Source of the DNA: Monoplex corrugatus
Lineage: Eukaryota > Mollusca > Gastropoda > Littorinimorpha > Ranellidae
Direction: 5' to 3'
Length of the DNA: 64,000 nt
Assembly (NCBI GenBank): GCA_030674185.1
Contig: JAPXFY010000013.1
Coordinates: 57,215,131-57,279,130 of the forward strand
The notes under the pieces were generated by a model, which saw only the letters and a list, made by a program, of their open reading frames with translations, did no database searches and had not been told where the DNA came from. Position numbers and translations under genes: made by a program. This document shows positions 1 through 60,620 of the stretch, in pieces (the stretch's first letter is position 1; the number at the start of each line of letters is the position of its first letter).

Positions 1-1225
1 TTATCATCCAGATCCACAATATGTTCCTTGTTTTATAATCCAGATCCACAATATGTTCTTGTTTTATAATCCAGATCCACAATATGTTCCTTGTTTTATC
101 ATCCAGATCCACAATATGTTCCTTGTTTTATCATCCAGATCCACAATAAGTTCCTTGTTTTATAATCCAGATCCACAATATGTTCCTTGTTTTATAATCC
201 AGACCCACAATAAGTTCCTTGTTTTATAATCCAGACCCACAATATGTTACTTGTTTTATCATCCAGATCCACAATATGTTCCTTGTTTTATCATCCAGAT
301 CCACAATAAGTTCCTTGTTTTATAATCCAGATCCACAATATGTTCCTTGTTTTATAATCCAGATCCACAATAAGTTCCTTGTTTTATCATCCAGATCCAC
401 AATGTGTTCCTTGTTTTATCATCCAGATCCACAATATGTTCCTTGTTTTATAATCCAGATCCACAATACGTTCCTTGTTTTATAATCCAGATCCACAATA
501 TGTTCCTTGTTTTATAATCCAGATCTACAATACGTTCCTTGTTTTATAATCCAGATCCACAATACATTCCTTGTTTTAAAATCCAGGTCCATGATGCACT
601 CCTTGGTTTAAAATCCAGATCCAAAATACATTCCTTGTTTTAAAATCCAGATCCACAATGCATTCCTTCTTTCATTATCGAAATCCACAATGCATTCACT
701 GTTTTAGAATCCAGATCCACAATGCATTCCTTCTTTTATGATCCAGATCCACAATATGTTCCTTGTTTTATAATCAACATCCACAATACATTCCTTGTTT
801 TAAAATCCAGATCCATATTACATTCCTTGTTTTAAAATCAGATCCACAATGCATTCCTTGTTTTAAAATCCAGATCCACAATACATTCCTTGTTTTAAAA
901 TCCAGATCCACAATGCACTCCTTGTTTTAAAACCCAGATCCACAGTGCATTCCTTGTTTTAAAATCCAGATCCACAATGCATTCCTTGTTTTAAAACCCA
1001 GATCCACAGTGCATTCCTTGTTTTAAAATCCAGATCCACAATGCATTCCTTGTTTTAAAATCCTGATCCACAATGCATTCCTTGTTTTAAAATCCAGATC
1101 CACAATGCACTCCTTGTTTTAAAATCCTGATCCACAATGCATTCCTTGTTTTAAAATCCAGATCCACAATGCACTCCTTGTTTTAAAATCCAGATCCACA
1201 ATGCATGCCTTGTTTTTTAATTCAG
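1..1225. repeat. 32-bp minisatellite
   Basis: About 38 units of ATCCAGATCCACAATATGTT plus CCTTGTTTTATA, drifting to ATGCATTCC/AAAATCC variants in the second half. Degenerate traces reach about 1480. Because 32 is not divisible by 3, translation gives a 32-residue period, so the reading frame at 219-485 is an artefact. Confidence 0.95.
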
Positions 1226-2847
1226 ATCTACAAAGCATGCCTTTTAAGTCACTGACATGATTTACACTTTGTTTTGAAATCAAGATCCATTGTTATTGCT
1301 GTTTAAAGCCCAGCAGACTATGTAGTATCATATCAGGGCTATAACAATGCATTCCTCCCAAGTCACCTCTATGATCTATATTTTGTTTTGAAATCAAGAT
1401 CCACAATGCATTCCTTGTTATAAAATCAAGATGCACAATGCTTTCCTTTTAAGCCACATTATGATCTATACTTCGTTTTAAAATCAAAAGTATTGTTTTA
1501 TTAGTTTTATTCTATCACACTAACAGAAATGGCAGGCTTGCAACATCACCTGAGACTGTGTGTACAACATATACTTAAAATTTTCACAAAATCCTGGGTT
1601 CAGTACAAGTGAACTAAACAAAAACAAAAACAAAAGAAAGCCAGACTAGCAATTACAACCAAAGTGATAAAGACGACTTGGCAAACACTGAAACTGCTGA
1701 CAAGAACCCATACTGAAAAACTTTTTTTTTCCATTGAACTTATCTGTCTGGTGATTTATTTGGTTGTTTTAATGTTTTACCTTGTTTCTTCTTACGTTGT
1801 ATTTAATGTTTTAGTTTGTTTCTTCTTATGTTTACTTTTTTTTTTTTTTTTGGTTGTTTATTTGTCGTTGCCACTAATCCACCCATCCTCCACAAAAAAA
1901 TGGCAAGCTCAAAATCATGTTTTTGTGACTTTCAGATGGAATAAAACTATAGCCCATATTTGGGGGGGAAGAGGGGGAAATCCACTCACAAACAACCGAG
2001 AAATCTTAACACCGCTTGTAGACAGACACACACAACCCCAACACTCATCCACCCCTCATCACGATCAACCTTGCCACAGGCAGATTTGATGCAATAAACA
2101 CCTAATATTTTTGAAAAAAAGAAAACAGGTCATCACAAATAAAAATGGAGCAAACAAAATGACACATAATGTGTTATTATTCCATAAAATGTTCTTGGCT
2201 TTCTCGTTTTCGCTGCCAGCAGCAAAATGATGAAACAAGCACAAATAATCGAACAAAAACTTTATGTTTTTCCTTTCACTGCAAACAGCAAACAGAAACA
2301 AGGGAAGCTTTGCATGAGGGCACGAACATTCTGAATCATGTGAATTGTAAAAGAAAAACAAAACAATAAAAAAAAAAAGCCATAAACACAAAACAAAATC
2401 GTAAAACCAAACCAAACATGAAACAACAACCAATAAAAAAAATAACAAATAAAACAGAGAAGTCTTAAAAAAAACACCATACACATATAGGAAAGAAGAA
2501 GAAAAAGAAAGAAAAACGAAAATAAGAAAAGCAAAGAAAGAAAAAAAAAAAAGTGGCAAAGATGAACACAAAAATGAACAACAACAACAACAATAAAGTG
2601 GGATGATCATATCAACAATCCATACTCATGACAGTGTCTGCATCACAGCTGAATGATGACACAGATTGTAACACAACATTAGCAAAACAAGCTGCAAAAT
2701 ATATCATGCTATGCATACATACACAACACACTGTGTGGTGATCAGCCTGTCACATGCACAATCTATTCAACTTGTCAGCTGTAAGCACATCAACCCTTTC
2801 ACTGCCTCAGCCAACCCATCAACTTTCTGAAATAACACAGTGTGCAT

Positions 2848-3345
2848 GATGAACGGAGTGGCTGAGTGGTTAGGGTGGTCAACTAGAAATCCACTGGGAT
2901 TTTCCTGCCCAGGTTTGAATCCTGTTGGTGACCTGAGTTTTCCCTGTGGACTACAGATAAGATATCTTGAGTTCAGTCCCAGCCCACAGCATTAAACACT
3001 GGCCTGTTTGCTGCCCATTTTAATGTTTACATCATTCTGCTGGTGTCAACTTAGTGTTTCATAGGTCCACTGGCCTGTTTGCTGCCCGTTTTAATGTTTA
3101 CATCATTCTGCTGGTGTCAGCTTAGTGTTTCATAGGTCCACTGGCCTGTTTGCTGCCCATTTTAATGTTTACATCATTCTGCTGGTGTCAGCTTAGAGTT
3201 TCAAAGGTCCTCCCCCTCACTCCCTACCCTTTCTGCTCCTCAGTTCAAGACCTTGCCAGCACATAGGGTTTTGTGCAGGCGCAGGGAGTCTGCCAGACAA
3301 CTGCTGGCAGATTTGGAAGGGAAAATGGGTTACAAAATAGCAATG
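2848..3345 (+). repeat. tRNA-derived SINE (family A) with triplicated tail module
   Basis: tRNA-like head with A box GTGGCTGAGTGGTTAGGG and B box GGTTTGAATCC. Next is a body module ACTGGCCTGTTTGCTGCCC repeated three times at exactly 71 bp (2998, 3069, 3140), then ACCTTGCCAGCACATAGGGT and CTGCCAGACAACTGCTGGC. Confidence 0.85.
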
Positions 3346-4285
3346 ACTGATTTCTCTACAGGCAGATATACATGCACACACACAAACAAAAAAATCAAAA
3401 TGTTCCTATACTTTTCACAATACTAGAGTACTGGCAGGGAGAACACCAACACAGTTCCCTAATGATAGCCATACACACATGCCCACACACACAAAGAAGT
3501 GAACAATCAACCATCTAAACAAACCAATCAACCAACAAACAAAATGTCACAAACTTTCACAAGTTTCATGTTTACATATTATGACAATGAAGCAGGACAT
3601 AAACACAGCTCTCTGAAGAGAAACAAAAGCATTTACACACTGGCACATTGCATGCACAAGCCTAAACACACATACAGATTTTCTGTTACTCTCAAATACA
3701 TACACCCCCTTCCGCTTTATAAACAGTTACGGTTACTAATCTTATGATAAAAAGTTATCATTAACTTTTCTTTCATGTCAACATTACTTGAAGTTTCTCA
3801 AGATGGTGTGTCTGTGATGCAAATAACTTCCATATGCACTGACGCCACAGAATCCATACGATGAATGAAATTCAGAATAATCATGGTTTTAGCCCTATAC
3901 CTGTGAAGAAGCCATACATGCTGGCAAGGTAGATTCTTACTTAGCATATGTTTTCTGTCTATCCATGTATCAATTTGTCAGTAGAACAATTCAGATATTA
4001 CAATAGTGAAATGTATCTCTACAGCTGATATATCCTTTTTAGTAAAACAACAACAACACAACCCCCAAGTATGATGCACTGTGCTAATGCTCCATAGATT
4101 CAAGTAATAGAAACCCATCTCTGGGGAACCCAACACACAACCACATCTCGTTTTTAGAACACAATTCATTATCCCCATCACTGTAATTCTCTTAAACGAT
4201 CCTCTATCCTTGATCTACAAAAACAAAACACAGGCAAATCCTGTGTCAGAACATCTGATCGTGCGCTGAAAGTGGCAAAGCGCAG

Positions 4286-27481: not shown

Positions 27482-27772
27482 TTAACCTTTTGACTCCCAC
27501 GCCCTGTCCACCATCAGCAGCCTGTATTGTCAACCACGCTAGCAAAGCAAAAGCTTAACCTTTTGACTCCCTCACCCTATCCACCAGCTTCCTGCAGGAA
27601 GCTGATGGATAGGGTGAGGGAGTCAAAGGGTTAAGTTTTTGCAGGAAGCTGATGGATAGGGCGAGGGAGTCAAAGGGTTACGTTTTTTTCAGGAAGCTGA
27701 TGGATAGGGTGAGAGAGTCAAAGGGTTAAGTTTTTGCAGTTGATCGATAAGGGGCGGGAATCAAAGGGTTAA
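27482..27772 (+). mobile_element. TTAA foldback element with amplified right arm
   Basis: 291 bp. The normal left half is followed by three successive copies of the inner right arm (AGGAAGCTGATGGATAGGGY...CAAAGGGTTA), spaced about 57 bp apart, then the outer right arm. Confidence 0.88.
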
Positions 27773-30130: not shown

Positions 30131-30319
30131 CCCGTTCACTCATGCAGCCTGTCCATAAGCTGCAAAAACTTAACCCTTTGACTCCCTCACCCTATTCACC
30201 AGCTTTCTGCAGGAAGCTGGCGGATAGGGTGAGGGAGAGAAAGTTACAAATTTTTGCTTTGCTGTCATAGCTGACAATGCAGGATGCTGACAGACAGGGT
30301 GAGGGAGTCAAAGGATTAA
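30127..30319 (-). mobile_element. TTAA foldback element abutting the previous copy
   Basis: Opposite orientation to the element at 29994 and joined to it through a single shared TTAA at 30127-30130. The inner palindrome is intact around CTGCAG. Confidence 0.85.
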
Positions 30320-30412
30320 CAAATATAACATAATGCCTTTTTGAGGGAGTCAAAGGGTTAACAACTATAACATAATGCCTTTTTGAGGGAGTCAAAGGGT
30401 TAACAACTGTAA
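30320..30412. repeat. Tandem copies of a foldback-element end
   Basis: A roughly 43-bp unit (AACTATAACATAATGCC then TTTTTGAGGGAGTCAAAGGG) directly repeated after the element at 30127-30319. Confidence 0.8.
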
Positions 30413-30529
30413 CATATGCTCTTTTTAATCTTCAGTAAAGCAGTGTTGAAGTGACCTATCTTACTGCAAACGTCTCATTCCAAATCAACACACCAAAATC
30501 GCATGAACTGATCCATGACCAATACAAAT

Positions 30530-39740: not shown

Positions 39741-39963
39741 TTAAACTTTTGACTCCCGCACCCTGTCCAATAGCATCCTGCATTGTCAACAGTGCTAGCA
39801 AAGCAAAACCTTGTCCCTTTGATTCCCTCACCTTATCTACCTGCTCCTGCAGGAAGCTGATGGATAGGGTGAAGGAGCCAAAGGTTTAAGATGGATAGGG
39901 TGAAGGAGTCAAGGGGTTAAGATTTTGCAGTTGGTGGATAGGGTGCGGGAGTCAAAGGGTTAC
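39741..39963 (+). mobile_element. TTAA foldback element with partial arm duplication
   Basis: The left TTAA is intact and the right end reads GGGTTACC. An extra partial inner arm (GATGGATAGGGTGAAGGAGT) is inserted before the outer right arm. Confidence 0.83.
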
Positions 39964-43509: not shown

Positions 43510-43655
43510 TTAATTTTTTTTCCAAATGGCCACAGCAAAGGAGCATCCAGGAGTCATGACCTGGGTCCAGCTCAGGTCCCCTTATAGGGGCAAGAGCTAA
43601 GGACCTTTTGCTGTCTGCCTCTCCCCAGAGTTTCTCACTCACTACTATGCCAACC
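43510..43655 (+). repeat. Retrotransposon/SINE tail copy
   Basis: GGAGCATCCAGGAGTCATGA and CCTTTTGCTGTCTGCCTCTC, then CCCAGAGTTTCTCAC, match the last 165 bp of the 53934-57687 element in order and orientation. Confidence 0.75.
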
Positions 43656-51485: not shown

Positions 51486-51871
51486 CCTGCACATTTGCAT
51501 ACTGTCCACATGAATAAAGCGTATGGGTGCATGCATGTGCATACATGTGTGTACTGATGAAATGTGTCTGGCTCCCAACCTCAAGCAGAATGACAATGAC
51601 AATGACAATGGGGGTGGGTGGAGATACAAAAATCCACACAACAGAGAGGGCTCTTAAATGTCCCTGCCTGATGAAGAGCTCTAACCACCACACAAGTTGC
51701 TGGAACCCTTTGTCATGGACAAAAGAGTCAAGAACCTAGACCACTATGTGAACTATTCAAAACGGCCAGTTCCAGATGTGGCAGAAATAAAACCAGAATT
51801 TGCAGCACGTCCCTATCATCACATCAGTGCAGGGCCTCAGGTGCTGTAGTGGGATAATTCAAGTTTATCGA

Positions 51872-52052
51872 CAGCTTAAATGTTCACAGTATGCTATATA
51901 CTATATTTATTTTATATAAATATAACAGCTTACAAGTTACATGTTCATAGTATGCTATATACTATGTTTATATCACAGCTTAAATGTTCACAGTATGCTA
52001 TATACTATATCTATATAACAGCTTACATGTTCATAGTATGCTATATACTATA
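51872..52052. repeat. 43-bp minisatellite, left of retrotransposon
   Basis: Units of the type CAGCTTAAATGTTCACAG followed by TATGCTATATACTATGTTTATATAA. About four units, interrupted at 52052 by the truncated retrotransposon copy. Confidence 0.9.
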
Positions 52053-53659
52053 CTGGTGGCCTCTTCAAGAATGAGGTTCAAACCTAAGAAATCCCGAAGT
52101 CTCTCACTGCGAAAAGGAAAAGTGGCAGATTCAGTCAAATTCATGGTAGCCAACCAAGCCATCCCCACTGTCACAGAAGAGCCAGTAAAAAGTCTCGGAA
52201 GATGGTATGATGACTCCCTGAAAGACACACAAAGGGGATGTGAAACCAAGCAAACAGCAGAAGAAGGCCTGAAGAAAATAGATAACTGCGGACTGCCAGG
52301 CAAATACAAAGTCTGGTGTCTACAGTTCATGCTGATACCAAAGCTGCTGTGGCCACTGCTAATCTATGACATTTGCACCAGCACAGTCGAAGCAATGGAA
52401 GCCAAAATCAACAAATACACAAGAAAATGGCTCGGTGTCCCACCTGGTCTCACTGATGTTGCATTCTACTGTCGTCAAGCAATGCTGAAGCTACCTCTCA
52501 AATCCATAGTGGGGAATACAAAGTTGGAAAAGCAAGACTGTTGAGCATGCTGGAGGAATCGGAAGACAATATCGTGAGATCAGTTCATCCAAAGCTGAGA
52601 ACTGGCAGAAAGTGGAAAGTCCAAGAGGCTGTAAACAATGCCAAGAGAAACCTCAGCATCAAAGAAATAATTGGACACACGCAAACCAACAGACAGGGAC
52701 TGGGAGCAACAAAAATGCAGTGGTGGTCCAAAGCCAAAGGGAAGGAAAAAAGAGACATGATCATACAGGAGTTGAAGGAAGAAGAAGATGTCAAAAGAGT
52801 GCAGAAGGCAGTCCAGCAAGGTCAACAGGGGCAATGGACAACATGGGACAGTGCACTCCAAAGAAGTCTCAGCTGGAACGATATGTGGCACATGGCTCCT
52901 CTAAGGATAAGCTTCCTCCTCAGATCTGTATATGACCTGCTCCCCTCGAATGCAAACTTAGTGAAATGGGGGAAAGCAGACGACCCAGCATGTCCGCTCT
53001 GTCAGAAGAAACAAACAGTGGAACATGTCCTAAGCTCTTGCAAAGTAGCGCTAGCCCAAGGAAGGTATACATGGAGGCACAACCAAGTTCTGAAAGTGAT
53101 CACAGATGTGGTTAGCGAAAAAACCATGACCCCAAACGCACCAATTGCTATGACAACGTTCTACAAAGCAGGAGGGAAACAGGTCTGGCCCGAAAGTGCT
53201 ATGACAACCAGCACATTGCCAAAGGGTCTTCTGGATGGAGCAGTCGACTGGGAGTGTACAGCAGACCTCCCAGAGTGGAGAAATTACCCAGATGTCATCA
53301 GCAAGACAGGCATGAGACCAGACATCGCTCTCCACTCTGACTCCTCGAAACAAGTGATTCTGATAGAACTCACTGTGCCATACGAAAGCAGAATGGAAGA
53401 AGCACATATCTACAAGACCGAAAAATACGCCGGTCTTGCCAGCACCCTGAAGAAAGCAGGTCTGCGGGTCAAAATCTTCGCCATAGAGGTCGGGGCAAGA
53501 GGGTTTGTGGGCACCTCCGCTTATGATCTCATGAAACAACTCGCCATTTCTGGGAAGAAGAGGACTAGAGCCCTTAAAGCGATGGCAGAGGCAGCAGAAA
53601 GGAGCTCAAGCTGGATCTGGGCAAGGAGGAACGAAAAAAGTGAACTTCATAAGGATTAA
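52053..53659 (+). pseudogene. Truncated RT/endonuclease coding region of the upstream copy
   Basis: Starts just after the FMDD motif, so the catalytic half of the RT is missing. One A is absent near 52513 (GTGGGGAATAC versus GTGGAGGAATAC downstream), which shifts the frame. From 52541 to the stop at 53657-53659 it reads cleanly. That part gives the intact C-terminal half: a C-x2-C-x7-H-x4-C knuckle (CPLCQKKQTVEHVLSSC) followed by a restriction-like endonuclease with RPDIALHS, then E-L-T-V-P and K-x2-K-Y. This C-terminal half is the undamaged reference for judging the indels in the downstream copy. Confidence 0.88.
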
Positions 53660-53933
53660 ATTCCCTACAGATGATGTGTGCCCCGTTAGCACATTGGTAA
53701 AACCGCGTACCGCAGTTCTGAAGCGCAGAATCGCCCAGGTTCGATCCCCGGCGTGGGAAAATTTTAAAAATAAAAAATAAGACAACAGCAGAAGGGCATC
53801 CAGGAGTCATGACCTGGATGTGGCCCGGCCCCCCGAGAGTGTAAGGAATTCAGGGCCGAAACACTTGTCTAAAGGGGGTTACTTCTCTGAAGACCTTCTG
53901 TTGTCTAGCTCTCCCTAGAGTTTCTTTCTACCT
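53660..53933 (+). other. Retrotransposon 3' UTR (upstream copy)
   Basis: Contains the tRNA-like module, an A/T stretch (AAAATTTTAAAAATAAAAAATAAG) and a roughly 165-bp tail ending CTCTCCCTAGAGTTTCTTTC. Sequences related to the tail appear at 43510-43650 (+), 46405-46500 (+) and 60477-60545 (-). Confidence 0.85.
53680..53758 (+). other. tRNA-like module in retrotransposon 3' UTR
   Basis: Has an A-box-like TTAGCACATTGG and a canonical B box, GGTTCGATCCC. The T-arm can be drawn as CCAGG/CCCGG around TTCGATC, and an anticodon-like stem as GTTCT/AGAAT around a 7-nt loop. The acceptor stem does not pair well, so this is tRNA-derived rather than a functional tRNA gene. It lies about 20 bp after the stop codon in sense orientation. 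Confidence 0.75.
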
Positions 53934-54167
53934 GCACATGGTCAGTCCATTGACTTCCGGGAATAGTTCGGAGGACATTCGGGAAAGACCGAAGGACACT
54001 GGGAAAGACTAGATCTGCGGGCTTTGTGGGTTGGCTTCCCACCTTGCCTTTGATAACATGCCACGAGTTTTTCAAATGAAAGATGCTCCCAGGATTCACC
54101 GAAAGGGGGAGAGAATGATGAATCCATCGGCACTGACTCCATCACGACTGGAAACGCACAACGGACC

Positions 54168-57100
54168 ATGATTAATGACCAGTTGGAATTTCCGTGTGCG
54201 TGTGGAAGGAGATTCACCACCAAACGCGGCATGAAGATCCACAGGACAAAAATGGGCTGTTTGAAGACACATACGAACCAGCAGCAGCGCACTGCGATAG
54301 CAGGTGAGACGTTGGATGACCAAGGCCAGGAATTAAACCATAGTGCCAAGGACATCCACGCTGACGGTTCTGATGCGGATTTTGCACAAGCTCTTAACGC
54401 CAAACGTGGAAAACTCAATTTGCCGCCTGCCGGTGCAAAAGAACAATGGGAGAAATTAGATGAGGAACTTGTCCTTAAGCTGAATGCGCTAATAGGGAAC
54501 AGTACGCTGGAACACAAACTTGACACATACGGAGACATCATATACTCTATCTGCAGGGACACTTATGGAGTGAAGCAGCCAAAGACAAAAACGCCTCCCC
54601 AGAAATCCAGAAGACAGCAACAGATGGAGAGCATCCGGAGGGAGAAAAGGAAGCTTAAAAAGCGAATGAAAACTGCCTCAGAATTCGAGAAGCAAGGGCT
54701 CCTGGAACTCTGGAAAGATCTGAAGGCCAAACACAATGCTCTCAGCAAAGTGGAATCAGCAAGGCGAAGAAAGAGCAAAAAGAAGAAGACTCAAGATCGT
54801 TTCTTCAAAGATCCCTTTGACTTTTCAAGAAAGCTGTTTGAACAACCCAAATCAGGGACTCTCACAGTGGGCAAGGAAACCCTAGAGCAGCATCTCAGGG
54901 AAACATATTCCGATTCTCAGCGCGAGGCACCACTTGAAATCCAGAATCTGGTTTGGCCTGCAGCGCCAGAAGGAAAATTCAATAACAAACCACCAACACT
55001 GGATGAAGTGAAGAACGTAGTAAAGAAAGCCAGAGCCAAGTCAGCACCTGGACCAAACGGAATACCATACCTGCTCTACAAGAAATGCCCAAAAGTGCTC
55101 GAGTGGCTCCACAAGATGATTCGATCAGCATGGAGGAACCAGAAGATCAGCGACCAATGGATGAGAGCTGAAGGAGTGTACATTCCGAAGGAGCAGAACT
55201 CCAGCAGCATCAATCAGTTCAGGCCAATATCACTTCTGAACGTCGAGGGGAAAATCTTCTTCTCTGTTATGGCAGCAAGATTGACAAAATACCTGACTGA
55301 AAACAAGTATCTGGATATGTCAGTCCAAAAGGGAGGCATACCAGGAATGCCTGGATGCTTGGAACATGCCACGTTGATTTGGGATGCCATCCAAAAAGCA
55401 AGAACAGAGAAGAGAAACATTGACGTAGTTTGGCTTGATCTGGCGAATGCATATGGATCAGTTCCACACGATATGATCCAGCTGGCTCTTGAAATGTATC
55501 ACATCCCAGAAAACATCCGAACAATGCTGAGGAAGTATTTCCAAGGGTTCTCAATGCGGTTCTCTACCAAAGAATACACCACGGACTGGATAGACCTTGA
55601 GGTGGGCATTGCAATGGGCTGTGCAATCTCTCCCATACTGTTCGTGTTGGCAATGGAAGTCATCTTGAAAGCTGCAATGAAGAGTTCAGGTCCAGTGAAT
55701 CTGGGAGATGGATACCAGATGCCTCCTCTGAAAGCTTTCATGGATGACACAACAGTCTTGTCCACGGATGAGGAAGAGACACACCAAATCTTAAAGCAGC
55801 TGGATGAGCTGGTGGCCTCTTCAAGAATGAGGTTCAAACCTAAGAAATCCCGAAGTCTCTCACTGCGAAAAGGAAAAGTGGCAGATTCAGTCAAATTCAT
55901 GGTAGCCAACCAAGCCATCCCCACTGTCACAGAAGAGCCAGTAAAAAGTCTCGGAAGATGGTATGATGACTCCCTGAAAGACACACAAAGGGGATGTGAA
56001 ACCAAGCAAACAGCAGAAGAAGGCCTGAAGAAAATAGATAACTGCGGACTGCCAGGCAAATACAAAGTCTGGTGTCTACAGTTCATGCTGATACCAAAGC
56101 TGCTGTGGCCACTGCTAATCTATGACATTTGCACCAGCACAGTCGAAGCAATGGAAGCCAAAATCAACAAATACACAAGAAAATGGCTCGGTGTCCCACC
56201 TGGTCTCACTGATGTTGCATTCTACTGTCGTCAAGCAATGCTGAAGCTACCTCTCAAATCCATAGTGGAGGAATACAAAGTTGGAAAAGCAAGACTGTTG
56301 AGCATGCTGGAGGAATCGGAAGACAATATCGTGAGATCAGTTCATCCAAAGCTGAGAACTGGCAGAAAGTGGAAAGTCCAAGAGGCTGTAAACAATGCCA
56401 AGAGAAACCTCAGCATCAAAGAAATAATTGGACACACGCAAACCAACAGACAGGGACTGGGAGCAACAAAAATGCAGTGGTGGTCCAAAGCCAAAGGGAA
56501 GGAAAAAAGAGACATGATCATACAGGAGTTGAAGGAAGAAGAAGATGTCAAAAGAGTGCAGAAGGCAGTCCAGCAAGGTCAACAGGGGCAATGGACAACA
56601 TGGGACAGTGCACTCCAAAGAAGTCTCAGCTGGAACGATATGTGGCACATGGCTCCTCTAAGGATAAGCTTCCTCCTCAGATCTGTATATGACCTGTCCC
56701 CTCGAATGCAAACTTAGTGAAATGGGGGAAAGCAGACGACCCAGCATGTCCGCTCTGTCAGAAGAAACAAACAGTGGAACATGTCCTAAGCTCTTGCAAA
56801 GTAGCGCTAGCCCAAGGAAGGTATACATGGAGGCACAACCAAGTTCTGAAAGTGATCACAGATGTGGTTAGCGAAAAAACCATGACCCCAAACGCACCAA
56901 TTGCTATGACAACGTTCTACAAAGCAGGAGGGAAACAGGTCTGGCCCGAAAGTGCTATGACAACCAGCACATTGCCAAAGGGTCTTCTGGATGGAGCAGT
57001 CGACTGGGAGTGTACAGCAGACCTCCCAGAGTGGAGAAATTACCCAGATGTCATCAGCAAGACAGGCATGAGACCAGACATCGCTCTCCACTCTGACTCC

Positions 57101-57414
57101 TCGAAACAAGTGATTCTGATAGAACTCACTGTGCCATACGAAAGCAGAATGGAAGAAGCACATATCTACAAGACGAAAAATACGCCGGTCTTGCCAGCAC
57201 CTGAAGAAAGCAGGTCTGCGGTGTCAAAATCTTCGCCATAGAGGTCGGGGCAAGAGGGTTTGTGGGCACCTCCGCTTATGATCTCATGAAACAACTCGCC
57301 ATTTCTGGGAAGAAGAGGACTAGAGCCCTTAAAGCGATGGCAGAGGCAGCAGAAAGGAGCTCAAGCTGGATCTGGGCAAGGAGGAACGAAAAAAGTGAAC
57401 TTCATAAGGATTAA
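54168..57414 (+). CDS. RT-endonuclease polyprotein of the full-length copy (frame broken near its 3' end)
   Basis: Open without interruption for 849 codons from ATG 54168 to a stop at 56715. The frame is open upstream only to 54057 (TAA at 54054), so 54168 is the first in-frame ATG. Residues C10-x-C12, H25 and C31 form an N-terminal CCHC finger. A Lys/Arg-rich linker spans about 140-210. RT runs from about 270 to 600, with D424 in WLDLANAYG, the GCAISPILF block and D526/D527 in FMDD. The thumb region contains KSLGRWYDDSL. Relative to the upstream copy, one missing C near 56697 shifts the frame, and two lost C's plus one extra T follow at 57170-57220. The coding sequence would otherwise end at TAA 57412, giving about 1080 residues. 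The reading continues past 56717 as CPLCQ...EHVLSSC and then the endonuclease PD...ELTVP motif. Confidence 0.88.
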
Positions 57415-57687
57415 ATTCCCTACAGATGATGTGTGCCCCGTTAGCACATTGGTAAAACCGCGTACCGCAGTTCTGAAGCGCAGAATCGCCCAGGTTCGAT
57501 CCCCGGCGTGGGAAAATTTTAAAAATAAAAAATAAGACAACAGCAGAAGGGCATCCAGGAGTCATGACCTGGATGTGGCCCGGCCCCCGAGAGTGTAAGG
57601 AATTCAGGGCCGAAACACTTGTCTAAAGGGGGTTACTTCTCTGAAGACCTTCTGTTGTCTAGCTCTCCCTAGAGTTTCTTTCTACCT
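57415..57687 (+). other. Retrotransposon 3' UTR (downstream copy)
   Basis: Identical to the upstream copy's 3' UTR except for one C fewer in a C-run near 57585. It abuts the minisatellite at 57688, which fixes the element's 3' end. Confidence 0.85.
57435..57513 (+). other. tRNA-like module in retrotransposon 3' UTR (second copy)
   Basis: Same sequence as 53680-53758, about 20 bp after the 57412 stop. Its presence at the same place in both copies shows it belongs to the element and is not a separate later insertion into one of them. Confidence 0.75.
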
Positions 57688-58740
57688 ATATTTATATCAC
57701 AGCTTAAATGTTCACAGTATGCTATATACTATGTTTATACCACAGCTTAAATGTTCACAGTATGCTATATATATACTATGTTTATATCACAATGTTCACA
57801 GTACGCTATATACTATGTTTATATCACAGCTTAAATGTTCACAGTATGCTATATACTATGTTTAAATAACAGCTTTAACCCTTCGACCCCCGCACTTTAT
57901 CCACAGCTGCAAAAACTTAACCCTTTGACTCCTTCACCCTGTCCAACAGCTTCCTGCAGAAAGCTGGTGGACAGGGTCAAGGAATCAAAGGGTTAAGTTT
58001 TTGCTTTGCTAGCATGGTTGACAATGCAGGATGCTGGAGGACAGGGTGCAGGAGTCAAAGGGTTAAATGTTCACAGTATGCTATGCACTATGTTTATAAT
58101 AACAGCTTAAATGTTCACAGTATGCTATATTGTTATTTACTGCGTTTACATAACACCTTAAATGTTCACAGTATGCTGCATACTATGTTTATACTTGTAA
58201 CCACTTAAATGTTCACAGTATGCTGCATACTGTGTTTACACAACCACTTAAATGTTCACAGTATGCTATATAGTATGTTTATATTACCACTTAAATGTTC
58301 ACAGTATGCTATACTATGTTTAAATAACAGCTTACATGTTTACAGTATGCTATGTGTTTATAATACAGCTTAAATGTTCACAGTATGCTATATACTATGT
58401 TTATAACAGCTTAAATGTTCACAGTATACTATATACTATGTTCAAATAACAGCTTAAATGTTCACAGTATGCTATATACTATGTTTAAATAACAGCTTAA
58501 ATGTTCACAGTAAGCTATATACATGTTTATATAACACCTTAATGTTCACAGCATGCTATATACTATGTTTATATAACACCTTAAAAGTTAAATGTCCACA
58601 GTATGCTATATGCTATGTTTATATAACGGCTTAAATGTTCACAGTATACTATATACTATGTTTAATATAACACCTTAAATGTTCACAGTATGCTATATAC
58701 TATGTTTATACAACACCTTAATGTTCACAGTAGGCCATAC
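57688..58740. repeat. 43-bp minisatellite, right of retrotransposon
   Basis: Continuation of the array found at 51872-52052, about 20 units of 38-44 bp, interrupted by a TTAA foldback element at 57875-58066. It ends in a TATATATA-rich stretch near 58740. Confidence 0.9.
57875..58066 (-). mobile_element. TTAA foldback element (piggyBac-type MITE), copy inside minisatellite
   Basis: 192 bp from TTAACCCTTCGACCCC to GGAGTCAAAGGGTTAA. The flanks AACAGCT and ATGTTCACAG rejoin to the minisatellite unit AACAGCTTAAATGTTCACAG, with one extra T on the left. This shows insertion into TTAA with its duplication. A nested palindrome is centred on CTGCAG. The orientation label is arbitrary, with the long asymmetric arm on the right. 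Confidence 0.9.
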
Positions 58741-60476: not shown

Positions 60477-60620
60477 GTTGTAAGTAGCAAGAAACTTTGG
60501 GGAGAGCCGGACAACAGAAGGTCCTCAGAGGAAGCCCCCCCCCCCATCAAGTAAGTTTTTCAGTCCCACCTCATAATCATATCTCACAGGTTGGGTTAGA
60601 AAATTGTAGACAGCATCAGG
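60477..60620 (-). repeat. Retrotransposon/SINE tail copy (minus strand)
   Basis: The complement reads GAGGACCTTCTGTTGTCCGG then CTCTCCCCAAAGTTTCTTGC, the last 45 bp of the 53934-57687 element. A poly-G run replaces its GGGGG stretch. Confidence 0.75.

Follow-up and report, generated by a model that had tools for sequence, protein, structure and literature searches.

Nearly every exact 5' end of an R2-type LINE in Monoplex corrugatus directly follows a copy of the element's own 3' end

In the genome of the gastropod Monoplex corrugatus, an R2-type LINE almost always begins directly behind a copy of its own 3' end. The first 15 bases of the element, as found in the 64,000-nucleotide stretch of DNA that we analysed (the window), occur exactly 1,438 times in the window's own assembly (3.02 Gb in 7,621 contigs), and at 1,407 of these places (97.8%) they are immediately preceded by the exact 3' end of the element, TTTCTACCT. 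A preliminary description of the window had taken its pair of copies for a rare single dimer and had suggested a search for other starts at the same 5' sequence and for other 3'-to-5' fusions; both turned out to be abundant, and fusion is a near-universal rule at exact 5' ends, not a one-off.

In the window, a 5'-truncated copy (copy A, the tail) stands before a full-length copy (copy B, the body), and element positions 1 to 3754 refer to copy B. The features used below are these:

51937 to 52052, no strand: 5' flank, a 43-bp minisatellite
52053 to 53933, plus strand: copy A, the 5'-truncated tail, equal to element 1876-3754 by alignment to copy B
52457 to 53659, plus strand: open frame of copy A with the C-terminal part of the protein, including a zf-RVT/CCHC region (amino acids 135-199) and an RPD...E endonuclease motif (53315-53323 and 53366-53368)
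53925 to 53948, plus strand: junction 24-mer, TTTCTACCT followed by GCACATGGTCAGTCC, joining element 3754 to element 1; 1,407 exact genome copies
53934 to 57687, plus strand: copy B, the full-length body, element 1-3754, from alignment and from its first 15 bases, found 1,438 times exactly genome-wide
54057 to 56717, plus strand: open frame of copy B with an N-terminal zinc-finger-like motif, CxC...H...C, and RVT_1 at amino acids 376-615 (about 55182-55901)
57442 to 57503, plus strand: tRNA-like stretch in the 3' UTR of copy B, with an A-box-like TAGCACATTGG and an exact B-box GGTTCGATCCC
57513 to 57536, plus strand: A-rich tract, variable in length among copies and a hotspot of tail starts
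57540 to 57687, plus strand: predicted structured 3' end of the element RNA with a large hairpin, from a fold computation
57688 to 57875, no strand: 3' flank, the same 43-bp minisatellite as the 5' flank, in an array called from 57686

The two copies form, as first described, a fused head-to-tail pair within one pair of minisatellite flanks: copy B opens with GCACATGG at 53934, zero bases separate it from the end of copy A at 53933, and both are embedded together in a single 43-bp minisatellite, with a direct repeat of at most 3 bp (ATA) at the ends of the insert. The earlier statement that the copies share their 3' end and differ by single-base indels alone over 1.88 kb also holds. Both end in TTTCTTTCTACCT, and alignment of copy A (1,881 bp) with the corresponding part of copy B (55809-57687, 1,879 bp) gives 99.68% identity, with six single-base indels and no substitutions. 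The reading frames of both copies are broken by frameshifting indels, as assembled; because differences confined to indels are typical of read error, the six fit long-read consensus error on identical copies.

Genome-wide, about 0.005 occurrences of the nine bases TTTCTACCT would be expected by chance before 1,438 5' 15-mers, and reversed-pattern controls gave 0 + 0 hits for the junction 24-mer and 0 + 1 for the 5' 15-mer. Extra bases at the junction, or bases missing on its 3'-end side, occur at no more than 31 of the 1,438 places. The base before the exact 5' end is other than T just once, at a solo start that has no tail (L071). Exact 3' 19-mers number 5,945 against these 1,438 5' ends, so many 3' ends must belong to copies that stop short of element 1. 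Counts of this kind need the exact 5' word, and junctions lacking the first bases of element 1 escape them, except in 17 pairs that were chosen by 3'-to-3' spacing, independently of the 5' word. These are the same-strand pairs lying one unit apart among the first 100 3' 19-mers, and all 17 are fused at element 1, 13 of them with the exact 15-mer and four, each read individually, with a 5' word altered at one or two bases; the 15-mer thus undercounts, and the exact joint is no artefact of the search word.

We read 57 loci individually, comprising 37 from an identity search, the window, and 19 from one contig (C1), and found an upstream tail at 56 of them. The identity search, with the first 667 bp of copy B as query, returned 824 candidates; the 40 that were scored are all 100% identical, youngest by choice, and represent 37 loci, two of which are arrays. 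At 36 of these 37 loci, as in the window, the tail ends exactly at 3754 before position 1, and the remaining locus (L012) is a solo start with only two matching bases before position 1. The contig C1 places were taken in list order, omitting one that had been read before and three that lie inside arrays, and all 19 have tails. Three bodies (L011, L014 and L021) run into N, and L044 yielded no 3' end. Comparison of 33 5' flanks gave only three weakly similar pairs, and flanks that differ in this way between loci indicate independent insertions. Target duplications at 27 loci are short and irregular, with a mean of 2.6 against 0.4 in shuffled pairs (reached in 0 of 200 shuffles), a mean inflated by L019 and L035, which are long matches in tandem-repeat target.

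The protein points to an R2-type LINE with a restriction-like endonuclease. Two window frames covering most of the protein match the Pfam families RVT_1 (9e-23) and zf-RVT (1.1e-07). The closest relative among the matches listed, P0001, matches 90% of the query (1,033 aa) at 98% identity, and a PDB search with P0001 as query gave R2 proteins as the best solved structures (E 3.8e-32). Across 14 aligned relatives the C, C, H, C and the R, P, D ... E residues are invariant, the latter forming the restriction-like endonuclease motif. An N-terminal zinc-finger motif, CACGRRF...IHRTKMGC, is found in the window frame and in most of the 14 relatives and is absent from P0001 and P0065 as given. Reverse transcriptase, CCHC knuckle, RPD...E motif and a single ORF with an N-terminal zinc finger together place the element in this class. 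A Penelope-like element was rejected on the enzyme, as no GIY-YIG endonuclease matched in Pfam at E up to 1 in the two frames that cover most of the protein. Like the R2 elements of arthropods and vertebrates, with which it shares homology of the reverse transcriptase and zinc knuckle and target-primed insertion, the element belongs with LINEs of this enzyme type; R2 inserts in 28S rDNA, whereas the flanks at the loci read here are diverse, several of them AT-rich minisatellite, and, judging from that diversity, a site-specific 28S element was set aside.

Elements of the HERO clade have one ORF with a zinc finger, a reverse transcriptase, a CCHC motif and a restriction-like endonuclease. A HERO-like affiliation is consistent with this architecture and with the protein relatives: among the best 120 of 638 matches, the named ones come from sea slugs, scallops and amphioxus, and HERO-clade elements share with ours both the single-ORF layout and relatives in Branchiostoma and scallops. 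The Branchiostoma relatives, 44-50% identical among the matches listed, serve here as a lead only. Other HERO families appear in the retrieved loci only as weak reverse transcriptase matches of 20-30% identity, in L028 and L024, and a look for relatives in viral contigs gave two pattern matches, neither confirmed. HERO-clade elements differ from ours in that the accessible portions of the open-access literature, among the matches listed, describe no tail-first organisation for them.

Tail and body appear to derive mostly from RNA of one locus. Over 30 loci where both parts could be read, with element 3572-3606 left out, tails differ from their own bodies by 28 substitutions, against 53.8 expected with other bodies. 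All but two of the 28 involve bases found in no other locus, as for new mutations or errors; the two others (L016 at 2811 and L036 at 3455) involve bases known from other loci and are either true disagreements or repeat mutations. Minority variants are common to a tail and its own body at 13 sites in eight loci and discordant at two, which argues that the two parts mostly have a single source, and nine of the 13 (seven loci) are private to their own locus among 36 tails and 32 bodies of varying coverage. The window's rare type of A-tract is concordant in tail and body at the window, L031 and L034, and other A-tracts often have unequal lengths in tail and body. L024 fits poorly, with five tail-body differences, four of them within the last 140 nt. 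Gene conversion between adjacent repeats could be an alternative or an added cause of the agreement.

Tails vary widely in length. At 34 loci they measure 11 to 2,901 nt, a set that leaves aside L015 (composite), L038 and L045 (beyond the 2,000 bases read) and L012 (none); the shortest, at L037, has only 11 matching nucleotides. In the C1 set, six tails end within the 215 bases read, and the other 13 extend through all of them. Tail starts fall inside the A-rich tract at element 3583-3603 at eight of 57 loci, which may reflect fall-off of the reverse transcriptase there, and no sharp peak resembling a transcription start site was found among them. Judged by spacing, a second junction lies at one unit's distance (3,744-3,934 bp) from six of the 85 C1 junctions, and C1 holds arrays of two to three full units, among them a chain with three 5' ends; of these arrays, only the one at 101.64 Mb (L028) was read. 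A constant stop rate over both rounds of copying was rejected, as a single-rate fit predicts 0.8% full second units against the six of 85 found by spacing. The second round seems less complete than the first (6/85 vs ~20%, p 0.01), a rough estimate to be taken as a hint only, in which the first round is derived from 30 junctions, three with a full upstream unit, and 56 solo 3' ends, and is scaled up by the share of bodies in which a 3' end was located (14 of 27).

These observations bear on where the template ends. If 53934 were the true 5' end of the element, as originally proposed, copies starting there without a tail should stand out; ordinary stopping predicts 1.4 (general tail rate) to 3.1 (shortest-tail rate) such solo starts, and the single non-T case in 1,438 does not exceed this. 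Solo starts no commoner than ordinary stops, with few extra bases, imply either near-perfect jumping or a continuous template, and we prefer a template that continues across the joint. Placed on the window frame from their protein sequences, relatives such as P0022 would start translation at about element 17. In our reading, a unit without its tail would then have almost no 5' UTR, and the tail would have to supply both promoter and leader.

We propose, as a favoured explanation held at somewhat less than even confidence, that each full-length insertion is a single event over a junction-spanning RNA, with the tail renewed along the way. One target-primed reverse-transcription event would copy the body, pass unbroken through the 3754/1 joint and run on into a second RNA stretch of the same source locus, stopping at a random point. 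The RNA template would already contain the junction. Transcription would start within the upstream tail, which would provide a promoter and a leader in the manner of a Penelope pseudo-LTR, and a tail-started RNA would bear the element's 3' end at both termini. At the RNA 5' end, the cDNA would anneal by its end to a second RNA copy, whose 3' end matches it, and copying would extend upstream, a strand transfer that would re-lengthen the tail and so renew the front end of the element in every cycle. The pair in the window would have arisen in this way, its tail being 1.88 kb long, and transfer to RNA of the same source would explain private variants shared far upstream of the likely start.

Towards a putative promoter in the tail, the sequence shows only A- and B-box-like motifs, with counterparts in copy A at 53687-53697 and 53738-53748; ARAGORN found no tRNA gene in the tRNA-like 3' UTR stretch. 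The 168-nt 3' end has a predicted fold of -54.7 kcal/mol (z -2.3, with 4 of 200 shuffles as good). A lineage specific to the tail predicts extra divergence near the tail's 3' end, and the excess in this direction is weak: 10 of 7,056 against 2 of 4,461 sites are diverged when the 3'-most tail stretch is compared with bodies, three of the ten coming from the single odd locus L024.

The dimer in the window had initially been interpreted as a template-jumping event. The order of truncated and full copy, the precise fusion, the varied flanks and the common source do argue for serial copying within one target-primed insertion and against crossing-over with target between the copies, so that part stands; the supposed rarity and the RNA 5' end at 53934 do not. 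End-to-end jumping in the strict sense, in which the RNA would begin at element 1 and the enzyme would there switch to another RNA from the same locus, entering it at its 3' end, seems to us unlikely, while deserving serious weight. The order, the same-source tails and the two discordant loci (L016 and L036) would suit two RNA molecules, but jumping demands an efficiency of at least ~99.5% and zero added bases at no fewer than 97.8% of junctions, and solo copies beginning exactly at element 1 are no more frequent than stops at any ordinary position would be. Jumps at RNA ends by such enzymes commonly carry extra bases. R2-type enzymes switch templates in vitro (PMC11371274 and PMC12180492, in the text available from each), and the accessible part of PMC11371274 defines a tandem 5' junction category in engineered human-cell insertions and gives head-to-tail repeats as the major 3' junction class with an endonuclease-dead protein; R2 template jumping in vitro and head-to-tail repeats in engineered insertions are to that extent already known. 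Excerpts of PMC2718515 indicate that Drosophila R2 5' junctions pointed to a mechanism different from a jump onto target DNA, and those of PMC12039810 describe a phage-defence reverse transcriptase that makes tandem cDNA repeats by jumping on linear RNA.

A circular RNA template strikes us as less probable again. Here the enzyme would start at 3754 on a unit-length circle, and products that pass element 1 would gain a tail, which would explain why element 1 does not behave as an end, why the junction is exact and why tail and body agree; the lower second-lap completion, rough as that estimate is, would suit copying of RNA already paired with cDNA. Relative to the pseudo-LTR model it requires one assumption fewer (the transfer) and one more (circularisation), and we know of no circular RNA template for a LINE. 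Against it, the 12 Rfam matches with E no higher than 10 over 51500-58300 (ten miRNA rows, SR1 and RAGATH-8 at E 9.7, all under the gathering score) include no self-cleaving ribozyme family, in a search that a divergent ribozyme could escape; a CTGAAGA core lies at 53887, but no fitting GAAA arm was seen in the next 90 bases. With no such family and an ordinary predicted fold for the first 167 nt of the element, a junction ribozyme seems improbable. Drosophila R2 has an HDV-like ribozyme at its 5' end (PMC3774820, available in part), and the circular forms in the accessible text of PMC3510499 arise as products of LINE retrotransposition and do not serve as RNA templates.

We consider it very improbable that new copies inherit the source locus's tail as is: this would account for the exact junction, but inherited tails could only shrink, yet tails of 2.9 kb are found and, judged by spacing, full-length ones, and private variants in both tail and body at seven loci are unexpected under separate inheritance. 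Unequal crossing-over, tandem duplication or assembly error is the least credible reading. The arrays of two to three units, the six C1 junctions one unit from another and the indel-only differences in the window speak for it, but it poorly explains the same exact joint at 1,407 places, with flanks and tails that differ from locus to locus where read.

The arrangement that we favour has a parallel outside the LINEs. As far as the available text of PMC3846280 and PMC11167929 goes, pseudo-LTRs of Penelope-like elements consist of a 5'-truncated and a full copy in direct tandem, possibly active, in which the repeated part carries a putative promoter, and AT-rich targets are favoured. Our element likewise has a truncated copy fused ahead of a full one (56/57 loci; 1,407/1,438 exact 5' ends), but Penelope elements encode a GIY-YIG endonuclease, whereas ours has an R2-type reverse transcriptase, a CCHC knuckle, an RPD...E motif and a near-universal tail. 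HeT-A and TART also place the 3'-end sequence of one copy before the next, in head-to-tail arrays where that sequence can hold the next element's promoter (PMC5537684, in the portion accessible); their arrays sit at telomeres and grow by one insertion after another, whereas our copies are dispersed, with tail and body mostly from one source. Tandem R1 elements in Drosophila rDNA are head-to-tail LINE copies too, and result from repeated insertions with a 14-bp target duplication between them (PMC2718515, same excerpts); here no bases intervene. Of the matches listed in our search of the open-access literature, none describes a LINE with a restriction-like endonuclease and a near-universal front tail.

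On balance, if narrowly, we think that an R2/HERO-class LINE has evolved, by convergence, the kind of cycle seen in LTR or Penelope-like elements, with a junction-spanning RNA, a pseudo-LTR rebuilt at each insertion and no 5' end of its own. How a LINE keeps its promoter while losing its 5' end on most insertions is an old puzzle, and this LINE seemingly puts a fresh copy of its 3' end before itself at nearly every full-length insertion, a result that LTR elements obtain by strand transfer. Linear, tail-started and circular templates lead to different predictions about the RNA that are easy to check. Some 1,400 natural junctions in one genome constitute a large in vivo record of an R2-type reverse transcriptase at the end of its template.

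The 3' UTR of this R2-like LINE carries a tRNA-like segment, which was found in both of the fused copies at window positions

57442-57503, a tRNA-like A-box with an exact B-box, 3' UTR of the full-length LINE copy
53687-53748, the same pair, 3' UTR of the 5'-truncated LINE copy

Within this tail region the two boxes come first, followed by an A-rich tract and then by the structured end; that is, the LINE's own tail has a SINE-like anatomy. Two other places in the window resemble this 3' end. At 43532-43635 (+) the structured end is matched in two pieces (91% over 33 bp and 85% over 34 bp), with no match there to the tRNA-like part, and this is another old tail relative. At 60484-60530 (-), 47 bp are 87% identical to the element's last bases, so this piece is either left over from an older relative or belongs to a SINE with the same 3' tail.

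A near-perfect inverted repeat lies at 57919-57994, where Rfam reports a match to mir-4716 on both strands, below the gathering score. A related word, GGGAGTCAAAGGGTTAA, recurs with variants in minisatellites at 27593-27739, 30300-30426 and 39859-39923.

Elsewhere in the genome assembly, the array L026/L027 (contig C2:68915972-68927495) comprises a tail and three full units, each ~30 bp longer than the full-length copy in the window; in the first unit, the added length sits in the A-rich tract. The bodies at loci L009 and L015 carry internal deletions, with element position 988 joined to 3510 and 2527 joined to ~3627, and they resemble the outcome of template switching within the element or of deletion. 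At a further locus, L024, the tail has zero substitutions relative to its own body across element positions 3321-3571, and several changes plus a small deletion in the last 140 nt (3614-3741), possibly a strand-transfer breakpoint or conversion. Finally, at element position 12 the 5' variant GCACATGGTCAATCC is present in three of the four read in this assembly and GCACATGGTCAAACC in the fourth, marking a further subgroup in which the fused junction is the same.
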